From: Deltaproteobacteria bacterium RIFOXYA12_FULL_61_11
Lineage (GTDB): Bacteria; Bdellovibrionota_F; JAHFAK01; YA12-FULL-61-11
DNA: 9,128 nt
Reading direction: 5' to 3'
NCBI GenBank assembly: GCA_001799195.1
Contig: MGSU01000156.1
Span: 1-9,128, forward strand
Positions 1 to 9,128 of this stretch are shown piece after piece. Made by a program: the position numbers and the translations under genes. Each line of letters opens with the position of its first letter. Positions within the stretch are counted from its first letter, which is position 1. The notes under the pieces were generated by a model that saw only the letters and a list, made by a program, of their open reading frames with translations, made no database searches and was not told the DNA's origin.

Positions 1-1
1 C

Positions 2-1252
2 GAGAGCCCCATCGACCAGTACCTCGTCCAACACCCCGAGTTCGTCACCGAGACCCCGGTGGAACAGGCCTGGCTCGACGGAGACAACCCCTACGTCCTG
101 CTCCAGCACCTCCCCTGCGCCGCCCACGAGTATCCGTTACGGCCCGAAGAACCCCTGCTCGAGGGTCCGGCCTACCGGCAAGCCGTGGAGACCCTGCACG
201 CCGCCGGCACCTTCAAGTGGTATCGCGGCTGCTCGCGCTACGCCCTGCCCGACTACCCGGCCAAGGGGGTCAACCTGCGCGGACTGACGGATCACAACGT
301 TGAGATCCACTGCCAGGGCGACGTCATCGGCGAAATCGATCCGATCGGCGCACGCGGCTCTCTCTATAAGGACGCGGTCTACCAGCACCTCGGTCGGCGA
401 TACCTCTCGCTCTCCCTCGACCTCGAACAGAAGCTCTGCGAGGTCGCTCCGACCGAGGTGCGCTATTACACCGAGGCGGTCTGGGAGGGGCGGGTGACCC
501 TTGGCGAGGCGGAAGGCCGCCGGGAGCACCACGGTCACCTGTTGCTCTTCGGCGCCGTGACCGTGAACAAGCAACCCAAGCTCTACAAGAAGATCCGCGA
601 GGGGAGCTTCGAGAACGTCGGGTACGGCCCCATCACCCTGCCGCCCTTCGAATACGAAACCACCGGTCTGTGCCTGCTGCCTGGCCGCGCCTGGATCGAG
701 ACCCTGGAGGCGGTGGACAAGCGTTTCGTGGACCTCGGCCTGCGGGGGCTGGCCTACCTCCTGCGGCGGGTCGCCCCCAGTCTGTGCATGGCCGCTGTCG
801 GCGACATCGATACCGACGTGGCGTTGGCCGAGTACGAAGAAGCCACGTGGCGCAGCGCGCTCTACCTGTACGACGCGCTCGAGGGCGGGGTAGGTTTCGC
901 CGAGAAGATCTTCCAGCTCCTCGAGTCCTCTCTCGGCCTGTGCCGGGAGGTGCTCCGCGAGTGTCCCTGCCGGGGGGGGTGTCTGGCCTGCGTCCCCCCG
1001 CTGCTCCCGGGAGTGTCCGGCGAAGAGACCGAGCAACTCCTGGTCGAGAGCGATGTCGCGGTGCGCTGCTGCGAGAGCCTGCTTTCTTCTCTGCTCGAGG
1101 GAACCCTCGTGGTGCCCGTGGTCACGCGGATCGAACGCAGGACCGGTCGGGCGGTCGAGCCTGCGCCCGAGGATCCCGAGGCAGCCCTGCGGCAGCGGCA
1201 ACTCGACCGTGCCGCAGGACAGTTACAAAAACGACGGGAGCGACAGCATTGA
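2..1252 (+). CDS. mrfA: MrfA/YprA-type DEAD/DEAH helicase, C-terminal part (DUF1998 zinc domain), 5'-truncated by window edge
   Basis: The open frame runs from base 2 with no stop, so this is the last 416 residues of a larger protein; the GTG at 59 is internal. The two RecA-like helicase domains lie outside the window. The first visible residues (SPIDQYLVQHP, then NPYVLLQHLPCAAHEYPL) match the segment after the helicase core in the YprA family. A GVGFAEKIF motif leads into a cysteine cluster, CPCRGGCLAC, with cysteines encoded at 962, 968, 980 and 989. This is the zinc-binding four-Cys motif of DUF1998 that gives MrfA its name. In B. subtilis, MrfA is a 3'-5' DNA helicase that works with the exonuclease MrfB to repair mitomycin C lesions in a UvrABC-independent route. 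Here an MrfB-like gene follows immediately, its TTG start overlapping this TGA stop, which supports the assignment. The ATPase motifs cannot be checked. Confidence 0.88.
   Translation, partial: ESPIDQYLVQHPEFVTETPVEQAWLDGDNPYVLLQHLPCAAHEYPLRPEEPLLEGPAYRQAVETLHAAGTFKWYRGCSRYALPDYPAKGVNLRGLTDHNVEIHCQGDVIGEIDPIGARGSLYKDAVYQHLGRRYLSLSLDLEQKLCEVAPTEVRYYTEAVWEGRVTLGEAEGRREHHGHLLLFGAVTVNKQPKLYKKIREGSFENVGYGPITLPPFEYETTGLCLLPGRAWIETLEAVDKRFVDLGLRGLAYLLRRVAPSLCMAAVGDIDTDVALAEYEEATWRSALYLYDALEGGVGFAEKIFQLLESSLGLCREVLRECPCRGGCLACVPPLLPGVSGEETEQLLVESDVAVRCCESLLSSLLEGTLVVPVVTRIERRTGRAVEPAPEDPEAALRQRQLDRAAGQLQKRRERQH
1236..1240 (+). promoter_or_regulatory. Ribosome binding site fixing a TTG start for mrfB
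   Basis: GGGAG lies 8 bases before the TTG at 1249, inside the 3' end of the helicase gene. No in-frame ATG or GTG is suitably placed near the junction, and the protein resembles its family right after this TTG. The TTG overlaps the upstream TGA as TTGA, the same arrangement as the ATGA and GTGA overlaps further down the operon. Confidence 0.65.
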
Positions 1253-2070
1253 TCGAGGGCGCCTTCCTCCACCTCCCCGGGATCGGTCCGGCCACGGCTC
1301 AGCGCCTCCGGGCAGCCGGGTTCCTCACCTGGTCAGACGTGCTGGCCCACCCCGAGCGCCTGCCGCTCGGCCCGGCCGGCAAGGAAAAACTCCTCGCCGC
1401 CGTGGAGAGGAACCGGCAGGCCCTCGAGGCCGACAACCTGCACTACCTCGTCTCCTCCTTCCACCCCAAGGAACACTGGCGGCTGCTGGGGGGCTGTAAC
1501 GAGCGACTGAGCTACTTCGACCTCGAGACCGATGGGCTCTGGCCCTACGGGAGGATCACGCTCATCGTCTGCCTGCATCGCGGCCGCCTGTGGCTCTTCC
1601 GGGCCGACCGCGACCTGGACGCCTTCTTGGACCTGCTCGAGGAGGTCGACCTACTGGTCTCCTTCAACGGCACCTGCTTCGACGTGCCCATGGTCTTGCA
1701 GCACTACCACATCCCGGAACTACCCTGCGCCCACCTCGACCTCCGCTGGGTCTGCCACCATCTCGGCTGGAAGGGCGGGCTCAAGGCCATCGAACAGGCC
1801 GTGGGGTTACAGCGGCCTCCGGGGATCTTCGGCCTCGACGGCGAGGACGCGATCCTGCTGTGGCAGCGCTGGATCCACCGGCGGGACCGGCAGGCCTTCA
1901 CGACTCTGGTGCGGTACTGCGCCGCGGACGTGCTCTCGCTCCGGCTCTTGACGACGGTTATCCTCGCCGAACACGGAACCTGCCTCGCCGAGGCCCTCGG
2001 TCCGAACCCTTACGAACAACTCGACGATCTGCTCCTCGAACCCCTCGAGGAACCGCGGAGTACTCCATGA
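1249..2070 (+). CDS. mrfB: MrfB/YprB-type DEDD 3'-5' exonuclease with N-terminal helix-hairpin-helix
   Basis: This is a 273-residue predicted metal-dependent nuclease of the RNase H-like YprB family. Residues 8-23 (LPGIGPATAQRLRAAG) form a helix-hairpin-helix DNA-binding motif. The nuclease fold starts near residue 88. All four DEDD carboxylates are visible: D91 and E93 in YFDLETDG, D145 in SFNGTCFDVP, and D227 in YCAADV. Tyr223 four residues before D227 is the spacing of DEDDy exonucleases. B. subtilis MrfB is, from memory, about 410 residues with a C-terminal TPR region; this version lacks such a tail, so it is a compact form. It follows an MrfA-like helicase with overlapping start and stop codons, so the two are probably translationally coupled and act together in excising damaged DNA. 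The start is TTG with a GGGAG eight bases upstream. The next gene overlaps its stop as ATGA. Confidence 0.87.
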   Translation: MIEGAFLHLPGIGPATAQRLRAAGFLTWSDVLAHPERLPLGPAGKEKLLAAVERNRQALEADNLHYLVSSFHPKEHWRLLGGCNERLSYFDLETDGLWPYGRITLIVCLHRGRLWLFRADRDLDAFLDLLEEVDLLVSFNGTCFDVPMVLQHYHIPELPCAHLDLRWVCHHLGWKGGLKAIEQAVGLQRPPGIFGLDGEDAILLWQRWIHRRDRQAFTTLVRYCAADVLSLRLLTTVILAEHGTCLAEALGPNPYEQLDDLLLEPLEEPRSTP

Positions 2071-3251
2071 CCCTGCCCACCTTGTTCGACCTCGCCGCAA
2101 GGCTCATCGCGGAAGACACGGCCGGGGAGGCCACCAACCTGCCCCTCCTGGACGTGGTGCAAGACCTCCTCGAGCGGGCCGGGTTCCGCTGCACGCGGCA
2201 GCTCGACGGCCGCAGGAACCTCGCCAACCTCCTCGCGGTCGCGGGTCCGCTCGACGACGATTGTTTGGTACTATGCGGCCATACCGATGTGGTCCCCCAC
2301 GCCGGTCAACCCGGTTGGAGCGGCGATCCGTTGCGGCTCCGGCGCGAGGGGGACTCCCTCCTCGGCCGGGGAACCTCGGACATGAAGGTCTTCCTCGCCC
2401 AGGCCGTCCTCGCCGCCCTCGAGACAGACCTCCCCGGACTGCGCCGCGGCTTGGCCCTGCTCTTCACCTACGACGAAGAGACGGAGAGCACCGGCGCGCG
2501 GCGGTTCGCCCGCTTGCTCGGCACCGGGCCCTCGCTCCTGCCGCCGAGGTCTCAGGTGCTCCTCGGCGAGCCGACCGACTGGCGCATCTACCGAGGCCAC
2601 AAGGGGTACGTGCGTTTTTCGCTGACCGCGCACGGCAAGGGAGGCCACAGCAGCCGCCGGGCCGAGGGCTGCAACGCGGTGGTGTGGGCGGCGAGGGCGG
2701 CAGCATTGATCGACGACCTCGCCCGCGAAGAACGCGCCGCGCTCGTTCCGGACGAGCTCTTCGGCTCCGAGGGCGAGGCCTCGGTCAACGTGGCCTCGCT
2801 GCACGGCGGCCTCGCCGACAACATGATCCCGGAACAGGCGGTGCTGCGGGTGTCCTATCGGCCGCGGCCGAACCAAGATCCCCTGGCCTTCCTCGAAAGG
2901 GTGCGCAAGGCCGTGGATGAAATCCTGCTCGGACCCATGAAACGGGAAGCGCGGACCGGCCAGCTCGATATCGACCTCCAGTACCAAGGTCCCGGACTCC
3001 TGACCGAAGCCGACACCATCCTCGAAAAAGCCCTCCTGTCGGCCGGGGCTCTCGGTCCTGCCGGAGCGGCACCGTATTCCACGGACGGTGGCCATCTTGC
3101 TGGAGCCGGGCTGCGCTGCCTGATCTGCGGCCCCGGCTCGCTCGCCCAGGCCCATCGCGCCGACGAAAGCATCTCTTCGGCAGCCTTCGAACAAGGAGTG
3201 CCCTTCCTGCGGGCCGTGATCCGGGAGTATTGTCTGACGAAGAGGAATTGA
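2067..3251 (+). CDS. argE: ArgE-like acetylornithine deacetylase (M20 metallopeptidase family)
   Basis: This 394-residue M20-family hydrolase is close to the usual ArgE length (about 380). ArgE removes acetate from N2-acetylornithine in cytoplasmic arginine synthesis, using one or two zinc ions. The full set of family residues is present: H72 and D74 in GHTDVVP, the bridging D105 in GRGTSDMK, the catalytic E137 and ligand E138 in YDEET, E168 in LGEPT, and H363 in QAHRADE near the C-terminus. The dimer-domain histidine is H194 in GGHSS. The GEPT...RGHKGY segment and the C-terminal ICGPGSLAQAHRADE resemble ArgE more than DapE, but a related deacylase such as a succinyl-diaminopimelate or amino-acid deacetylase is not excluded. 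The ATG start overlaps the mrfB stop (ATGA), and GGAG at 2057-2060 lies 6 bases upstream. No other arginine genes are visible, so its place here is probably shared transcription rather than shared function. Confidence 0.85.
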   Translation: MTLPTLFDLAARLIAEDTAGEATNLPLLDVVQDLLERAGFRCTRQLDGRRNLANLLAVAGPLDDDCLVLCGHTDVVPHAGQPGWSGDPLRLRREGDSLLGRGTSDMKVFLAQAVLAALETDLPGLRRGLALLFTYDEETESTGARRFARLLGTGPSLLPPRSQVLLGEPTDWRIYRGHKGYVRFSLTAHGKGGHSSRRAEGCNAVVWAARAAALIDDLAREERAALVPDELFGSEGEASVNVASLHGGLADNMIPEQAVLRVSYRPRPNQDPLAFLERVRKAVDEILLGPMKREARTGQLDIDLQYQGPGLLTEADTILEKALLSAGALGPAGAAPYSTDGGHLAGAGLRCLICGPGSLAQAHRADESISSAAFEQGVPFLRAVIREYCLTKRN

Positions 3252-3838
3252 TGGGCTTCCCACCGCTCAGCTCTGCCCGGTTGTTGGGACCGGCGTTCGT
3301 GCTGGTCGCCGGAGCGGCGGGCGCGACCTGGTGGTACCTCGATCAGCGCGACCGCGAGAGCGAGGTCCTTGCGGCCTTCGAGTTCCTACATCGCAATGTG
3401 TACGAGGCTCTGGCCGAGACCGACGAGCAACGGCTCTACGAGGCGCTGGCCCGGAGCTTCCACGGTCGCGAGCTGGAACGGCAGTACCGCGAGTTCCACG
3501 CGGGTCTCCTGCACCGGCGGGACGAACAGGTCGAGGTCCAGCTCGACCGTTTGGAATTCCTCGGCCTGGACGTCGCCCTCTCCGGCTCGGACCGCGCCGA
3601 GGTCACGGCCTCTTGGGAGGTGGGCGGCCGGTTGCGGCACCGCGGCCATGTCCACCTGCGCCTCCTCCGCCACCGTGCTCGCTCCACGCTGCAATTCGTG
3701 CCGCCCGAGGGCTGGCGCTTGGTCGCGTGCGAGGTGCTCCAGGGGCAGGATTTCACCCTCTCGGAGGCCGAACGCGAACGCGGCACCGCGCCTCCTGTCG
3801 CCGCCACTGTGGCTCCGGAACCGAGGCCGGGCCCATGA
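3251..3838 (+). CDS. Membrane-anchored protein of unknown function, ABC-transporter associated
   Basis: The product has 195 residues. Residues 11-30 form one hydrophobic helix (LLGPAFVLVAGAAGATWWYL) that should anchor it with the rest outside the cytoplasm. An amphipathic helical stretch rich in Arg and Glu follows (about 32-100), then a region predicted as beta strands with W122, GHVH at 132-135 and GW at 154-155, and a Pro/Ala-rich tail from 179. From memory, the pattern of an RNVYEAL helix, then a Trp, GHxH and GW-R near the end recalls an uncharacterised bacterial family found near transporters; I cannot name a Pfam entry. I chose ATG 3251, which overlaps the argE stop as TGATG and has AGGA at 3243-3246. 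TTG codons at 3230 and 3248 are in frame but less well placed. The next gene, an ABC ATPase, overlaps its stop as ATGA, so it is likely an accessory subunit of that transporter. Confidence 0.72.
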   Translation: MGFPPLSSARLLGPAFVLVAGAAGATWWYLDQRDRESEVLAAFEFLHRNVYEALAETDEQRLYEALARSFHGRELERQYREFHAGLLHRRDEQVEVQLDRLEFLGLDVALSGSDRAEVTASWEVGGRLRHRGHVHLRLLRHRARSTLQFVPPEGWRLVACEVLQGQDFTLSEAERERGTAPPVAATVAPEPRPGP

Positions 3839-4521
3839 CCGGACGGCAGAGCCTCGCCCTCGAAGCCCTCGGCCTGCAAGTGCGGTATCCCGGTTCGGGA
3901 ACCTCTGCCCTGGCCCTCGACGAGCTGCGCGTCAACCGTGGTCAGACCCTCTGCGTGCTGGGACCCAGCGGCAGCGGGAAGACAACGTTCCTCGACTGCC
4001 TGGCCGGCCTCGTGCGTCCGGACCGGGGCTCCCTGATCGTCCTCGGGCAGGACCTCTCGAGCCTCGGCGACGCGGCCCGGCGGCGGTTCCGGCTGACCCG
4101 GTTGGGTTCCGTCTCCCAGCGCTTCGAGCTGGTACCCTATCTCACGGCCTTGGAGAACGTGCTGCTGCCCGCGCGGCTCCGACCAAGCCGGTCCGACCGG
4201 GCGAGGGACCTCGAGGAGGCGAGGGGCCTGCTCGACGCCATGGGTCTCACGGCCCTCTCGCGCCGGAAACCCGGTCAACTCTCCTGCGGAGAAGCCCAGC
4301 GGGTAGCGGTCTGCCGGGCGCTGCTCGGGAGCCCTGAACTGTGCCTGGCCGACGAACCGACCTCGAACCTGGATCCGGCCGCCGCCGGCCTGGTGCTTGA
4401 GCTGCTCCTCGCACGTTGCGAGAAGACCGGCGGGACTCTGGTCCTGACCACGCACGACCGCGGCCTCGCCGCGGCCTTCGACCTCGTGATCGACCTCGGC
4501 GAGGGGAGGCGGGCGTGGTGA
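3835..4521 (+). CDS. ABC transporter ATP-binding protein, LolD/MacB type
   Basis: This 228-residue single-domain ATPase powers a transporter at the cytoplasmic face of the inner membrane. All motifs are visible in order: Walker A GPSGSGKTT at 43-51 (K49), the Q-loop Gln at 95 (SVSQRFELVPYLTALENV), the signature at 149-153, Walker B CLADEP with D173 and E174, the D-loop SNLD, and the switch His207 in TTHD. The spacing and the LTALENV and DEPTSNLD segments are typical of the LolD/MacB/FtsE group that pairs with FtsX-type permeases. The signature is LSCGE rather than LSGGQ/E, with a Cys in the second-last usual Gly position; its effect is unknown. It overlaps the gene before (ATGA) and the permease after (GTGA), so the three are almost certainly co-expressed. 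The substrate cannot be read from this subunit; context suggests a metal system. Confidence 0.9.
   Translation: MTGRQSLALEALGLQVRYPGSGTSALALDELRVNRGQTLCVLGPSGSGKTTFLDCLAGLVRPDRGSLIVLGQDLSSLGDAARRRFRLTRLGSVSQRFELVPYLTALENVLLPARLRPSRSDRARDLEEARGLLDAMGLTALSRRKPGQLSCGEAQRVAVCRALLGSPELCLADEPTSNLDPAAAGLVLELLLARCEKTGGTLVLTTHDRGLAAAFDLVIDLGEGRRAW
4505..4509 (+). promoter_or_regulatory. Ribosome binding site for the permease GTG start
   Basis: A strong GGAGG sits in the last codons of the ATPase gene. It is 5 bases before GTG 4515 and 8 bases before GTG 4518. The second GTG overlaps the ATPase stop as GTGA and gives the better spacing, so 4518 is preferred; the difference is one residue. Confidence 0.6.
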
Positions 4522-5660
4522 GGTTGGTCCTGAGACAGCTCCTGCACGAACGCTTCACAACCCTACTGTTCCTCTTGTGTTTCGGTCTGCTCGCGGCCCT
4601 GCCGCTCGGCCTCCACCGCTTGGTCGGGAGACTCGAGGAAGGCATGACCGAGCGGGCTGAACGCAGCCCGCTCCTTCTCGGCAGGAGGGGTGGACAGCTC
4701 CAGCTCGTCCTCGCCGCCCTGCATTTCCGCGGAGCTGCGCCCGAAGCCCTCACCTTTGGCGATTTCGAAAACCTCTCCGAGCGTTGGAGGGGAGCGATGG
4801 TGCCGCTGCACCTCGGCGGTTCCCTGGCACAACGGCCTTTGATCGGCACCGACCCCTCGTACTTCGAATTCCGAGGGTTGCACCTGGCCCGAGGCTCGGC
4901 CTTCGCTCTGCTCGGTGAGCTCGTGCTCGGGGCCGAGGCGGCCGAGGAATTGGAGGTCCAGGTCGGGACCCTGCTCCGAGCCGACACCGGAGGCGCCTTC
5001 GACCTGACCAGGTCCGAGGTCCCCGCGCTGGCCGTGGTCGGTATCCTCGCGAAGAGCGCCACCGCGGACGACGGCGCCGTCTTCGCCGATCTCTCCACGG
5101 CCTGGATGGTCGAGGGCTTGCTCCACGGCCATGCCGGGGCCGGCTCGGATCCTGCGGCGATCGACCGCAGCGACGACCGTACCGTGGTCTATTCGCCGCT
5201 CCTGCCCACGGCTACGGCCATCGACCCTACCGAGCTCTCGGCCTTCCACCTGCATCTCGAACCCGAGAGCGCGCCGTTGCACGCGATCCTCCTCGAGGGG
5301 ACCGACCAAGCCGAAGAAACCATGCTCCTGGCCGACCTCGATCGCGACGAGCGCCTGTTCGCGGTGCGGCCCGTCGAGGTCGTCGAGGAACTCCTGGCGC
5401 TGGTGTTCCGCGTGCGGGAGGCCTTCGACCTTGTCCTGGCGGCCGTGTTCTGCGCCGTGGCCATGCTCCTTAGCGTGGTGGTGCTCCTGTCGTGGAGGGT
5501 TCGCAGGGAAGAATTCGCCCTGTTCGAGACCCTCGGAGCACCGAAGGGTTTTGCCGCAACGCTCGTCGCCCTTCAATTGCTGGTGCTCCTGCTGGCCGGG
5601 ACGGCGCTGGCGGCCGTGTTGGTGGAGGTGCTGGCAAGGGGATTCGAACGTGGATGGTAA
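4518..5660 (+). CDS. FtsX/MacB-like ABC permease, apparently missing its last transmembrane helix
   Basis: The product has 380 residues. Helix 1 is at about 14-32 (TTLLFLLCFGLLAALPLG), followed by a large periplasmic domain (about 33-298), helix 2 at about 303-326, a cytoplasmic loop with RREEFALFETLGAPKG (the usual FtsX-family coupling loop, R-R-E..A...LGA), and helix 3 at about 348-371. The protein then stops at RGFERGW. FtsX-type permeases normally have a fourth helix here, so the C-terminus looks cut. The periplasmic segments PLLLGRRGGQLQLVL, MVPLHLGGSLAQRPLIGTDPSYF, LVLGAEAAEELEVQVG and LAVVGIL resemble the COG0577 permeases found in zinc-regulated loci rather than LolC. I recall this from family alignments and have not tested it. 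The stop coincides with the start of a lower-GC segment. Neither other frame downstream encodes a hydrophobic helix, so a simple frameshift does not explain the loss. It may be non-functional or may end in an unusual way. Confidence 0.8.
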   Translation: MRLVLRQLLHERFTTLLFLLCFGLLAALPLGLHRLVGRLEEGMTERAERSPLLLGRRGGQLQLVLAALHFRGAAPEALTFGDFENLSERWRGAMVPLHLGGSLAQRPLIGTDPSYFEFRGLHLARGSAFALLGELVLGAEAAEELEVQVGTLLRADTGGAFDLTRSEVPALAVVGILAKSATADDGAVFADLSTAWMVEGLLHGHAGAGSDPAAIDRSDDRTVVYSPLLPTATAIDPTELSAFHLHLEPESAPLHAILLEGTDQAEETMLLADLDRDERLFAVRPVEVVEELLALVFRVREAFDLVLAAVFCAVAMLLSVVVLLSWRVRREEFALFETLGAPKGFAATLVALQLLVLLLAGTALAAVLVEVLARGFERGW

Positions 5661-5668
5661 GGAGATAG

Positions 5669-5689
5669 TACCGTATTCACTATGCGGTG
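5669..5689 (+). other. Short stem-loop just after the permease stop
   Basis: TACCGTAT (5669-5676) can pair with ATGCGGTG (5682-5689) around the 5-base loop TCACT. This gives eight pairs, two of them G-T wobbles (T5669-G5689 and T5674-G5685). No T-run follows, so it is not a convincing intrinsic terminator. It is the only hairpin I see in the non-coding stretch 5661-5761. Confidence 0.35.
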
Positions 5690-5734
5690 GGTAGCGCGGA
5701 GATAACAAGGGCAGGCCGACATTCTTCTTGTAAT

Positions 5735-5764
5735 GGTGAAACTTCTATTGGTGAGACTTCGATG
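5735..5764 (+). repeat. Imperfect 15-base tandem duplication spanning the sulfatase-family gene start
   Basis: GGTGAAACTTCTATT (5735-5749) is followed directly by GGTGAGACTTCGATG (5750-5764), with 12 of 15 positions identical. The second copy supplies the Shine-Dalgarno-like GGTGAG (5750-5755, 6 bases before the start) and the ATG itself. The first copy has a similar GGTGA but ends ATT where the second ends ATG. The surrounding region 5661-5761 is otherwise non-coding and AT-richer than the operon upstream (26 of 60 bases G or C at 5701-5760). Confidence 0.55.
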
Positions 5765-7900
5765 GAAATGCAGCGCAGAGCAGGAATTCGTCGGTGGCGC
5801 TCGATCGCATCGTGGTGGGTGTTGCTCCTGGGCGTGGGTTGTTCCTGTCAAAAGGAGAAGAGTGGACCGGTGCCGGGCAGTCTTGTCCCTGAAAGAGCGG
5901 CCAGTACAACAGCCGCGCTGGAACAAGATGAAAACGTTGAGCCCACGTCCGATAAGGTCCCAGTAGTCGACCGAGGCTCAGCCGATCCGATCCGAGCAGC
6001 TCTCGAGCTCATCCCGACCGACCCGAGGCTGGCATACGATCGTCTGACAAAAGCCCTTGCAGAGGATATGACCGCAGCTCCCGCCCACCGCGCCAATGGT
6101 TATCTTCAGCTCATGCACCTCCTTCAGGAATTCGGTGGCTCGCGTCGCCAAGCCGAGGAGCTCGCCTATAAAGCCTATCTCGAACAACCTGAACTCCTCG
6201 AAGCGCTGCAAAAGCTCTACACCATAACGAGTCTCAACGAACGAAAACCGGAATCGCTTACCTGGTTGCGTCGGCTGCTCCAGCAACGGGGCTATCTCTT
6301 CGATCCTCGAGAGGTGTACGATCCCCAACAGTTCATGGAGGTTCTCGGAAAACGTTCCCCGGAAGCAGGACGTTATGATGTGCGTTGGTATCGACTCGGG
6401 GTGCTCTACAGAATGCTGGGCTTGTCGGCGAGGGCACAAGTGAAGTTCGAGGAAATCGTCAACCGAGCCATCGACACCCATGGGTTCTACGCCAAGAGTC
6501 TCCAACAGCTTTCCCGGCTGCATGCTTTACGCGGCGACTTGGCGATGGCAAGGAAGTACGAGGCCCGGGCCGCCGAAGTAGAACCGCTTGGATTGCCCCT
6601 CGGCCAACCAGAACGCCCCAGTGTGGTGTTCCTGACCATCGATGCTCTCCAGGCGAAACACCTCGGGACCTATGGGTATCCCCGGAAGACCACGCCCAAT
6701 CTCGATGCCTTTGCAGCCAAAGGGTTGGTCTTTGAGCGCGCGTTGGCAACCTCAACCGCCACCGTGAGTTCCAGCGTTTCCTTCCTAACCGGTTCCTACC
6801 TGGCAACAGAGGGCCAACAGTCCGGTTGTTCCTTGCTCGGCGATGAACACCGCACCATGGCTGAGCACTTCCAGGATCTCGGATATGTGACCACGGCCAT
6901 CCTGAACAACAGCAATTACGCTGCCTGCAGTGGGTTTCAGCAGGGATTCGATCATGTTGAGCTGGGATTCGAGAACGCCAGGGATCAGGTCGCCGCGACC
7001 ATCGCCAGACTGGTCAACCCGGAGTTGCGCTTGCCCTTCTTCTTCTGGGTCCACCTCATTGATCCTCATTCCCCGTATGACCCACCAGGAGACCGGCAAC
7101 ACCGCTTCTCGGTTGCCCCCCTGGTTCCCGATCGGCAATTGACGCTGGAACCGGAAGATGGTGACGACGACTCCTTACCAGCTCACACGATCCTTCTTCG
7201 TTCCATATATGATGGGGTCCACCGCAAGCTGTACTATTATCTGAATGCGTATGACGCGGAGCTTCGCTACACCGATAACATATTGGGTCTCTTGCTGCGT
7301 TTCCTCGATACCCTATCGAACGTCATAGTGGTCGTGAGTGCTGATCATGGCGAGTCCCTGGGGGAGCACGATGTGCCGTTCACGCATGGTAATCAACTCT
7401 ACCAAGAATTATTGCACGTCCCTCTGATCCTCAGAGCTCCGGGTTTGAAACCTGGGCGGCACCGTTCCACCACCGTGAGCCTCGTGGATGTGCTGCCGAC
7501 CTTGCTCCGATTGGTCGGCGCTGAGGGGGCCGATCTTGACGGAGAGGATCTCCTGACACAATGGCGCACCGGTCGCAGACAGCACCCTGTTTTCGCCTAT
7601 AGCCATCATCCCGAGCACGGTATGATCTCGCGGGTGGCCGTGGATGAGCGGTATAAGTATCTCGAGTTGATCGACCCTCGAGATACCCCACGGAAGGAGT
7701 TCTTCGATCTGCGCGGGGATCCGGAAGAGTATCAGAATATCTACCTAGACGATGATCCACACATGAAGATGCTGGCAGAGAAGATGGCTGCCTTCCTCAA
7801 AGAACATCCTCGTAAAGCTTCGGCTACAACCGATAGAAGCCTCAAGGGGCTTGATCCCTTCACGCGAGAACGCCTCAAGAACCTCGGGTACCTCAAATGA
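5762..7900 (+). CDS. Sulfatase-fold lipoprotein-like protein with N-terminal helical repeats
   Basis: The product has 712 residues. The N-terminus has an Arg-rich start, hydrophobic WWVLLLGVG and Cys27, a likely but non-ideal lipobox (Gly at -3), so it is probably a periplasmic or outer-membrane lipoprotein. Residues about 70-280 are helical with TPR-like spacing. The alkaline-phosphatase/sulfatase domain (PF00884 type) starts at about 287: VVFLTIDAL with metal ligand D294, TPNLDAFAAKGLVFERA, the active-site segment TATVSSSVSFLTG, HLIDPHSPYDPP from H431, and ADHGESLGEH with D528 and H529. The C-terminus has FFDLRGDPEE and ends LKNLGYLK, both typical of this family. The nucleophile site has no CxPxR formylglycine motif; Thr334 is in that position, so it is a sulfatase-fold hydrolase or transferase and probably not a true formylglycine sulfatase. 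GC and codon use are lower than in its neighbours (30 of 60 bases at 6181-6240 against 44 of 60 at 4201-4260), suggesting transfer. Its stop overlaps the next start (ATGA). Confidence 0.85.
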   Translation: MEMQRRAGIRRWRSIASWWVLLLGVGCSCQKEKSGPVPGSLVPERAASTTAALEQDENVEPTSDKVPVVDRGSADPIRAALELIPTDPRLAYDRLTKALAEDMTAAPAHRANGYLQLMHLLQEFGGSRRQAEELAYKAYLEQPELLEALQKLYTITSLNERKPESLTWLRRLLQQRGYLFDPREVYDPQQFMEVLGKRSPEAGRYDVRWYRLGVLYRMLGLSARAQVKFEEIVNRAIDTHGFYAKSLQQLSRLHALRGDLAMARKYEARAAEVEPLGLPLGQPERPSVVFLTIDALQAKHLGTYGYPRKTTPNLDAFAAKGLVFERALATSTATVSSSVSFLTGSYLATEGQQSGCSLLGDEHRTMAEHFQDLGYVTTAILNNSNYAACSGFQQGFDHVELGFENARDQVAATIARLVNPELRLPFFFWVHLIDPHSPYDPPGDRQHRFSVAPLVPDRQLTLEPEDGDDDSLPAHTILLRSIYDGVHRKLYYYLNAYDAELRYTDNILGLLLRFLDTLSNVIVVVSADHGESLGEHDVPFTHGNQLYQELLHVPLILRAPGLKPGRHRSTTVSLVDVLPTLLRLVGAEGADLDGEDLLTQWRTGRRQHPVFAYSHHPEHGMISRVAVDERYKYLELIDPRDTPRKEFFDLRGDPEEYQNIYLDDDPHMKMLAEKMAAFLKEHPRKASATTDRSLKGLDPFTRERLKNLGYLK

Positions 7901-8874
7901 AAACTCCCCGACCTGCAAGACAACTTTCCTCCAATAGGTTGCGTACCTCGCCTCTCCTCACCCTCCCGGTACTCCTCTACTGCCTCGCGGCGCCGACGGG
8001 CTATGCTGCTCCGAAAACTTCCCGGCCCCTGGTCGTCGCCTCGTCGTTCCACCTCGCTGCCCTGGTCGATGGACTTGCCGCGGGATTGGTCGAGGTCGAC
8101 CTCCTGGAGCTCGAGGATCCGGCGCACGCTTGGCCGAACCGCGAGCAGGTCCTGCGCCTCCAAGCCGAGGCCTCCTTGGTGCTGGTCAACGGGGTCGGCT
8201 TCGAACCCTGGCTCGAGACCGTGGCCCTACCCAGGCGTGCCCTGTTTCGGACCGGCCGGGCCCTGAGACAGGGGGGCGACCTGCTCGAACGGCCGGGAGC
8301 CGCGGTACACGGCCACGGCGCCGCCGGTCGACACAGCCACGCCGCCGAGGCAGGCCACACGTGGTTAGACCCCGAGCTCTTGCTACGGGAACTCCGGGCC
8401 GTGGAGACACGCTTGCGGCTGTTCCTCCCCGGAGCGAGCGAAGTCCTGGCGGCGAACGCCGCCACCTGTGCCGCGGCGCTCCAAGGACTCGCCGAGCAGG
8501 TGGAGAAGCTCGCGGCGGCCGTGCCCAAGGGGACCGTGCTCGCCGCCAGCCACCCGGCCTATGACTACCTCGGCCGCCGCCTCGGTACCGCCATCCACAG
8601 CCTGCACCTCGAACCCGAGGACGCACTCACCCCCGACGACCTCGCCGAGCTGCAGGGACTCGGAGGGAGGGGCGTCATGCTCTGGGAAGGGCCTCCCCAA
8701 TCGGAAACCGTCGAGCTGCTGCGTCGCGAGGCCGGGTTGACCGTGGTCGTCCTCGACCCCCTGGAGCGGCGACCGGAGGGGCAGGGATGCCCCTTCACAC
8801 TCCTCGTAAACACCTTTGCCCGGGGACTGGCCGACCTCGACCGGGCCTTGGCCGGACTTCCGGGGCAACGCTGA
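7897..8874 (+). CDS. ZnuA/TroA-type metal-binding periplasmic protein
   Basis: This 325-residue exported protein belongs to the cluster A-I metal-binding ABC family that captures Zn or Mn in the periplasm. The signal peptide has a basic start, hydrophobic LLTLPVLLYCLAA (20-32) and a likely cut after GYA at residue 37. Family landmarks are in order: VVASSFHLAALV, metal ligand H78 in DPAHAW (usually DPH, here with two extra-looking residues), LVLVNGVGFEPWL, a short His-rich loop with H138, H140, H146 and H148, ligand H154 in HTWLDP, ligand H219 in SHPAYDYLG, E264 in WEGPPQSE, and ligand D287 in VVLDPLE. The three-His-plus-acid set and the His-rich loop favour zinc. No ZnuB or ZnuC gene is seen; the nearest ABC genes are the FtsX-type pair at 3835-5660. 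The ATG overlaps the upstream TGA, with no clear ribosome binding site, so translation may depend on coupling. The first ~20 codons are lower in GC than the rest. Confidence 0.86.
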   Translation: MKTPRPARQLSSNRLRTSPLLTLPVLLYCLAAPTGYAAPKTSRPLVVASSFHLAALVDGLAAGLVEVDLLELEDPAHAWPNREQVLRLQAEASLVLVNGVGFEPWLETVALPRRALFRTGRALRQGGDLLERPGAAVHGHGAAGRHSHAAEAGHTWLDPELLLRELRAVETRLRLFLPGASEVLAANAATCAAALQGLAEQVEKLAAAVPKGTVLAASHPAYDYLGRRLGTAIHSLHLEPEDALTPDDLAELQGLGGRGVMLWEGPPQSETVELLRREAGLTVVVLDPLERRPEGQGCPFTLLVNTFARGLADLDRALAGLPGQR

Positions 8875-8878
8875 GCCG

Positions 8879-9128
8879 ATGAAGAAGCTCCTCTTGGCCG
8901 TCTTGGGCCTGCTGCTACTCATGGAGAGCAACGCGCACATCGTGCAGCTCGGCGGCAGGGACACCCCCTCGCCGGACACGTACCGTTTCGGCCATGGCCT
9001 GTTCCGCTTGACCGAGGAGACCCGGTACCTGCTCGAGCACACCTCCCTGACCGTGCTGGACAAACACCTGATCCGGCTCGGTCTGCTGGTGACCGTGCAG
9101 GACCTGTTGACCTTCACCGACCTCGACC
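8879..9128 (+). CDS. Secreted protein of unknown function, 3'-truncated by window edge
   Basis: Only the first 83 residues are present. MKKLLLAVLGLLLLMESNA is a clear signal peptide, with cleavage likely after SNA (residue 19). The mature part begins HIVQLGGRDTPSPDTY and continues with FGHGLFRLTEETRYLLEHTSLTVLDKHLIRLG, which looks mostly helical; I do not recognise the family. His occurs at 20, 39, 54 and 63, not enough to claim metal binding. It starts 4 bases after the ZnuA-like stop, so it is most likely in the same transcription unit and could be another periplasmic part of the metal system. The ribosome binding site is weak (TGAG overlapping the upstream stop). Confidence 0.7.
   Translation, partial: MKKLLLAVLGLLLLMESNAHIVQLGGRDTPSPDTYRFGHGLFRLTEETRYLLEHTSLTVLDKHLIRLGLLVTVQDLLTFTDLD

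Follow-up and report, generated by a model that had tools for sequence, protein, structure and literature searches.

A conserved, apparently undescribed four-gene system that pairs a MacB-type permease with a TroA-fold receptor, with nickel or a similar metal as its probable substrate

The contig MGSU01000156.1 of Deltaproteobacteria bacterium RIFOXYA12_FULL_61_11, analysed here over its whole length of 9,128 bases (C156; hereafter the window), belongs to a genome of 4.64 Mb in 342 contigs (G000, 87% complete) and carries five genes in one direction, with junctions that either overlap or span 26 bases. Four of these genes encode an anchored periplasmic protein (lip), an ATP-binding cassette (ABC) ATPase, a permease and a substrate-binding protein (SBP), and form a conserved unit whose substrate is probably nickel or a metal like it. 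An earlier note on this DNA, made from the sequence alone, had described a one-direction gene block at 3251-9128, with which both the coordinates of these five genes and the Pfam assignments (ABC_tran, MacB_PCD, ZnuA) agree. The features are as follows.

3251..3838, + strand: anchored periplasmic protein (lip), 195 amino acids (aa), with an N-terminal membrane anchor and a C-terminal domain carrying the invariant H130xxH133xH135xR137
3835..4521, + strand: LolD/FtsE/MacB-type ATPase (PF00005, ABC_tran, 7e-28), with a 4-base overlap with neighbour genes
4518..5660, + strand: permease with a predicted three-helix MacB fold (AlphaFold2; Foldseek, VIA-align) and invariant periplasmic HGH (203-205) and FHxH (243-246) motifs
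5687..7900, + strand: lipoprotein with TPRs and a sulfatase/phosphotransferase fold (PF00884, Sulfatase, 3e-42)
7897..8874, + strand: TroA/ZnuA-fold SBP (PF01297, ZnuA, 4e-24) with the loop H138xH140G...H146xH148, W156 and H219P
8879..9128, + strand: small secreted protein, first 83 codons (open reading frame 8879-9127), with a signal peptide, running off the contig

When plasmid records were searched with the permease, two loci were recovered, in Methylomagnum ishizawai and Paracoccus liaowanqingii, and both showed the order hypothetical protein, ATPase, permease and 'zinc SBP', as in the window. The alignment of these three permeases, scanned against one genome per species, yielded 80 further loci spread over Planctomycetota, Verrucomicrobiota, Methylococcaceae and other Gammaproteobacteria, Rhodobacterales, Gemmatimonadota and others. 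The order lip-ATPase-permease-SBP is recurrent in loci L037-L118, which bears out the earlier proposal of a unit that excludes the sulfatase gene, and more than 60 loci hold all four genes together; among the 83 sets, lip is present in 64, the ATPase in 78 and the SBP in 66, many of the gaps being contig ends. Where at least 1 kb of downstream sequence was available, an SBP lay within 3.5 kb of the permease in 64/76 loci, so that the counter-case raised in the earlier note, an ATPase-permease pair never found beside the ZnuA-like gene, fails. Furthermore, ATPase and permease are fused into one 645-aa protein in L061. In 386 genomes picked independently of the system, the permease family and the SBP family were present in exactly the same seven, with clear score gaps in both cases (permease 395-559 bits, next 134; SBP 248-409 bits, next 197), and the patristic distances of permease and SBP were correlated (0.57, against a maximum of 0.24 in 1,000 permutations). 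The one other genome of the host's class that was examined is without the permease, and a tally of 138 outer neighbour genes gave no additional recurrent partner. Altogether, lip, ATPase, permease and SBP are a real conserved unit across phyla, and a MacB/FtsX-type permease teamed with a TroA-type receptor, a pairing that had been flagged as unusual, is a real and conserved architecture.

The sulfatase-fold gene (5687-7900) lies between the permease and SBP genes in the window only and is missing from this place in relatives. Its GC content at third codon positions (GC3) is 0.62, whereas the other genes have values of 0.80-0.94, and it therefore looks like a later insertion, outside the conserved system. 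The encoded lipoprotein combines TPRs with a lipobox, and what is usually the Cys/Ser nucleophile motif reads TVSSSVSFLTG, so that the protein could act as a Thr-type phosphotransferase or hydrolase and not as a sulfatase.

The AlphaFold2 model of the SBP (predicted local distance difference test, pLDDT, 88.5) has the fold of AdcA, FpvC and ZnuA (Foldseek to AdcA, 4e-17), and a search with the SBP profile recovers YcdH and AdcA at 1e-49 to 1e-47. The 'full metal ligands' first read into this protein did not survive comparison with its family: PHxxP, which holds the first canonical ligand His, is found in 0/65 family SBPs versus 21/31 canonical ZnuAs, its place being taken by a family motif, DPxxW (DPAHAW in the window, with a displaced His). 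The second ligand His (GH-TW) is kept in 25/65 family SBPs and the third (HP) in 55/65, and the window SBP keeps both. Conversely, an HxHG...HxH loop, scored with a strict pattern, occurs in 58/65 family SBPs versus 1/31 canonical proteins; the first two His of this loop are conserved without exception among the aligned sequences. Because the split between family and canonical SBPs has weak support in the tree (0.44), we base their separation on scores and motifs. Judged by these motifs, the SBP is a TroA-fold protein with a candidate metal site different from that of ZnuA, and the zinc-protein annotation that family SBPs carry in public records is probably wrong in part.

The permease matches Pfam MacB_PCD (3e-6) and, partially and under its cut-off, FtsX (positions 7-70 of 120, 0.006). 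Its AlphaFold2 model (pLDDT 92.5, 70 sequences) predicts helices at 12-49, 285-328 and 345-377 and a periplasmic alpha/beta domain, and the modelled fold matches MacB, LolE, HrtB, YbbP and the Streptococcus pneumoniae structure 5xu1 (Foldseek, VIA-align). The full model aligns to HrtB over residues 1-300 of 341 and to LolE up to about residue 349 of 413, thus ending ~40-65 residues short of their C termini. Because the model stops before this C-terminal part, the permease is predicted to be a three-helix variant without the fourth membrane helix of the MacB class; hydropathy agrees on three helices, not four, and gives an extra C-terminal segment in ZrgB relatives. HGH 203-205, the two His of FHxH (244 and 246), W196 and P253 are invariant in all aligned permeases. 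The likeness to the Zrg group, suggested in the earlier note also for the periplasmic motifs, stands as homology to ZrgB-type permeases (hidden Markov model E 9e-36 to 2e-32) and falls for the His motifs, since both HGH and FHxH are absent from ZrgB.

The anchored protein (3251-3838) has no Pfam or NCBIfam match above cut-off, and its profile found no relative by sequence among solved structures. All aligned members share HxxHxHxR, W122 and W155. The protein is short in Rhodobacterales and in the window, and other lineages carry an extra N-terminal domain of 200-400 aa, which in one protein shows weak similarity to DUF6702, a family studied as metal-binding (PMC12537917). A mature N-terminal His was found in 10/46 long anchored proteins by a crude test, which we do not use as an argument.

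This gene set shares parts with several known systems and is a member of neither ZnuABC nor Zrg; we class it with the MacB-type metal-linked ABC systems, as a variant. Like Vibrio ZrgABCDE and Pseudomonas PA4063-PA4066, it has a separate LolD/MacB-type ATPase, a homologous FtsX-type permease and a dedicated periplasmic metal-binding protein. In contrast to ZrgABCDE, a TroA-fold SBP takes the place of ZrgA (PF10986, which has no match in the 87% complete window genome), the permease has a predicted three helices instead of four and carries HGH/FHxH, an anchored HxxHxH protein is present, and no Zur boxes were seen with proteobacterial consensus patterns. With the cluster A-I importers ZnuABC, AztABC and AdcABC it shares a TroA-fold SBP with a His-rich loop; however, its permease is of MacB fold and not ABC-3 (PF00950), the ZnuB-type permease being encoded on another contig, and its SBP lacks the first ligand His and has the HxHG...HxH loop where theirs is a variable His-rich stretch. 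The Rhodobacterales variant shares NikK-type (DUF4198) and NikL-like periplasmic proteins with the NikKMLQO nickel energy-coupling factor transporters, but a MacB-type pair and an SBP replace NikM, NikQ and NikO, and the NikL-like protein corresponds to the soluble half of the family model only. Finally, the permease fold and the ATPase class are those of the type VII ABC proteins MacAB-TolC, LolCDE, HrtBA and FtsEX, from which the system differs by its single permease gene, three predicted helices, TroA-fold partner and lack of an adaptor (no MacA-type adaptor by Pfam in the window, and none in the conserved neighbourhood). LolCDE itself is set apart by the ATPase, whose best NCBIfam match is LolD at 156 bits, under the equivalog cut-off of 307.75, and by the lack of a LolC/LolE pair.

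Clues to the metal come from neighbouring genes. The genes of the Rhodobacterales loci run lip-ATPase-permease-DUF4198-small protein-SBP; the DUF4198 protein, which we take to be NikK from the gene pair and established knowledge, is encoded in 14 loci, and the small protein matches the NCBIfam NikL family in 7/7 cases tested (E 1e-11 to 7e-20). DUF4198 is also found between SBP and lip in a separate lineage (L178/L182; G095, G233), and NikR is encoded near two loci, L037 and L097. A DUF4198 protein from Ideonella binds nickel with a Kd of 18 nM and is encoded near TonB receptors and NikR (PMC12537917). The urease alpha subunit was present in 11/11 genomes with DUF4198 in the locus versus 0/10 without it, and NikM (CbiM family) was not found in 7/9 of the NikK/NikL-bearing Rhodobacterales genomes searched. 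Given the NikK/NikL genes, the urease association and the frequent absence of NikM, nickel, or cobalt, is the likeliest metal in this Rhodobacterales branch, as judged from gene content; the window's metal may differ. No NikK/NikL component was seen in the window, whose contig ends soon after the SBP gene. Zinc, the substrate first suspected, lost ground to this association and to regulation: no Zur-, Fur- or NikR-box-like sites above chance were found in 68 upstream regions, with the proviso for Zur that proteobacterial consensus patterns were used and other phyla may use other boxes, and palindromes sought by eye upstream of the operons were not common between loci.

In the mechanism that we propose, two ATPases and two three-helix MacB-fold permeases would form a dimer together with the TroA-fold receptor and the anchored His-motif protein. 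Periplasmic carriers (in some lineages NikK/NikL types or other N-terminal-His proteins) would hand a divalent metal to the SBP, which would bind it via the HxHG...HxH loop and the HP-His and dock on the periplasmic domain of the permease. The HGH and FHxH of the permease, with the HxxHxH of the anchored partner, could then form a relay, and closure upon ATP hydrolysis would power transfer of the metal, most likely into the cell; in the NikK/NikL-bearing branch this would most likely be nickel (possibly cobalt), supplying urease. The docking, the relay, the direction of transport and the window's own metal are what we infer. We favour import, since the permease is partnered by a receptor of the uptake type and nickel for urease is needed in the cytoplasm. 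Export or purely periplasmic transfer would be less likely alternatives: the fold class is known for both, and the related PA4064-PA4065 has been assigned to export of pyochelin-cobalt (PMC11481552), while Vibrio Zrg has been assigned to zinc import (PMC9820375).

We see an even balance for and against the broader reading, a conserved inner-membrane ABC system that handles a divalent metal, most likely inward, with nickel in the NikK/NikL branch. The narrower reading, an importer of nickel (or cobalt) that depends on the SBP and has a three-helix MacB-fold permease at its core, is put forward tentatively, as something that may well prove wrong. A number of points weigh against the broader reading. 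Most MacB-fold (type VII) ABC proteins act as exporters or mechanotransmitters. Export of pyochelin-cobalt has been proposed for the homologous PA4064-PA4065 (PMC11481552). The NikL matches span profile positions 1-98 of 180 only and hence fall under the curated cut-off, the NikK/urease correlation is confounded by phylogeny, relatedness inflating the figure, and the window genome (87% complete) has no NikR and no urease match. Elsewhere, copper genes lie near the system (CopC in six Methylococcales loci, PCuAC in two Gemmatimonadota, SCO in L075). Moreover, 12 loci have no adjacent SBP; in 11 of these 12 genomes a family SBP is encoded elsewhere (209-400 bits, versus no more than 81 for canonical ZnuAs).

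The alternative that survives best, which we nevertheless regard as unlikely, is a ZrgABC-like auxiliary zinc importer with a ZnuA-like protein in place of ZrgA. The SBP profile is indeed closest to the zinc receptors YcdH, AdcA and ZnuA, the permease is homologous to ZrgB, and in one Paracoccaceae locus (L100, 13485-18479) a canonical zur-znuCB/znuA cluster starts ~2 kb downstream of the system's SBP. Against this, the upstream regions lack Zur-box-like sites under the proteobacterial consensus, all 65 SBPs are without the PHxxP ligand, ZrgB is without the two His motifs, the recurrent partners are NikK/NikL and not zinc proteins, and the window genome already has znuA, znuC and znuB, in order, on another contig (G000:C43). 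The earlier note had named a complete znuBC elsewhere as a difficulty for the pairing of permease and SBP: the genes are there but the pairing is unbroken, and their presence shows no more than an ordinary zinc uptake system in the same cell.

We are distinctly sceptical of a periplasmic metal-transfer (mechanotransmission) machine, in which ATP would shift metal between carriers or into secreted metalloenzymes without membrane crossing, copper being possible in methanotrophs and Gemmatimonadota. The MacB/LolE/FtsX fold acts in this way in known cases, and the three predicted helices, the universal anchored His protein and the CopC and PCuAC neighbours in two lineages would all fit; yet a TroA-fold SBP is a hallmark of uptake systems, and the NikK/NikL and urease link implies a cytoplasmic demand for nickel. 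An improbable reading is a MacB-type exporter of metal or metallophore with the SBP as periplasmic capture partner: the permease fold and PA4064-PA4065 set a precedent (PMC11481552), but the conserved unit has no MacA/HlyD-type adaptor or TolC gene, the fourth helix is apparently missing and the uptake-type SBP is obligate. Lastly, that the genes are chance neighbours, with the ZnuA-like gene part of another system, as the sulfatase gene between permease and SBP in the window might suggest, is refuted by the adjacency in relatives, the identical genome sets, the fusion and the correlated distances, the intervening gene itself being a compositional outlier.

The system bears on two questions. 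In the open-access literature searched, we found no description of this combination of genes, and neither NCBIfam nor Pfam has a curated family named for the permease, for the anchored protein or for the two in combination with the rest; the widespread four-gene system is apparently undescribed. Orphan NikK/NikL proteins that lacked an explanatory gene neighbourhood were described in a 2009 survey (PMC2667541), and the system may account for some of them. It is also disputed whether MacB-type metal-linked systems import metal, as for Vibrio Zrg (PMC9820375), or export metallophores, as for PA4063-PA4066 (PMC11481552). A large family that ties such a permease to an uptake-type receptor makes the question directly testable, and the NikK/NikL link offers urease activity as a simple read-out. 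If the system is a nickel/cobalt importer, the MacB/FtsX class would be a genuine importer fold, and orphan NikK/NikL proteins would gain a transporter.

Several loci show further features. Copper was considered as a general substrate and rejected, CopC and PCuAC being confined to two lineages. Four Methylococcales loci (L037, L046, L052, L060) have a homologous TonB-dependent receptor near the system and, upstream, genes for a BNR-repeat protein, CopC and an uncharacterised secreted protein of ~220 aa. In L042 (~3440-3460), a palindrome, TATGTTATATAACATA, lies upstream of the Methylococcales operon; it is Zur-like in look and absent from relatives. L178/L182 (G095, G233) place the system beside corrinoid-dependent methyltransferase-like genes (homocysteine methyltransferase-like, URO-D family), which may point to cobalt. 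In Planctomycetota, genes for two further proteins recur beside the system (L045, L056, L065, L072): one protein is of ~337 aa and is predicted to have a single membrane anchor, the other is its membrane partner of ~160 aa. A ZrgA-ATPase-permease set in L130 (G346:C2, 2865-7649) adjoins a canonical znuA-like gene, a second ABC ATPase and a Fur-family-like gene, so that zrg and znu stand in one cluster.

At the right-hand end of the window, the small secreted protein (8879-9128) had been counted among the unit's genes. It starts with a signal peptide, with a mature N-terminal His after it (...SNA/HIVQLGG); the reading frame is truncated by the contig end and has neither a family match in Pfam or NCBIfam nor a homologue in relatives; it is an unproven, candidate member only. 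The left-hand part of the window (1-3251) encodes the C-terminal part of an Hrq1/MrfA-type helicase with an MZB domain, immediately to its right an RNase_H_2 protein with a helix-hairpin-helix at its start, and then an M20 peptidase.

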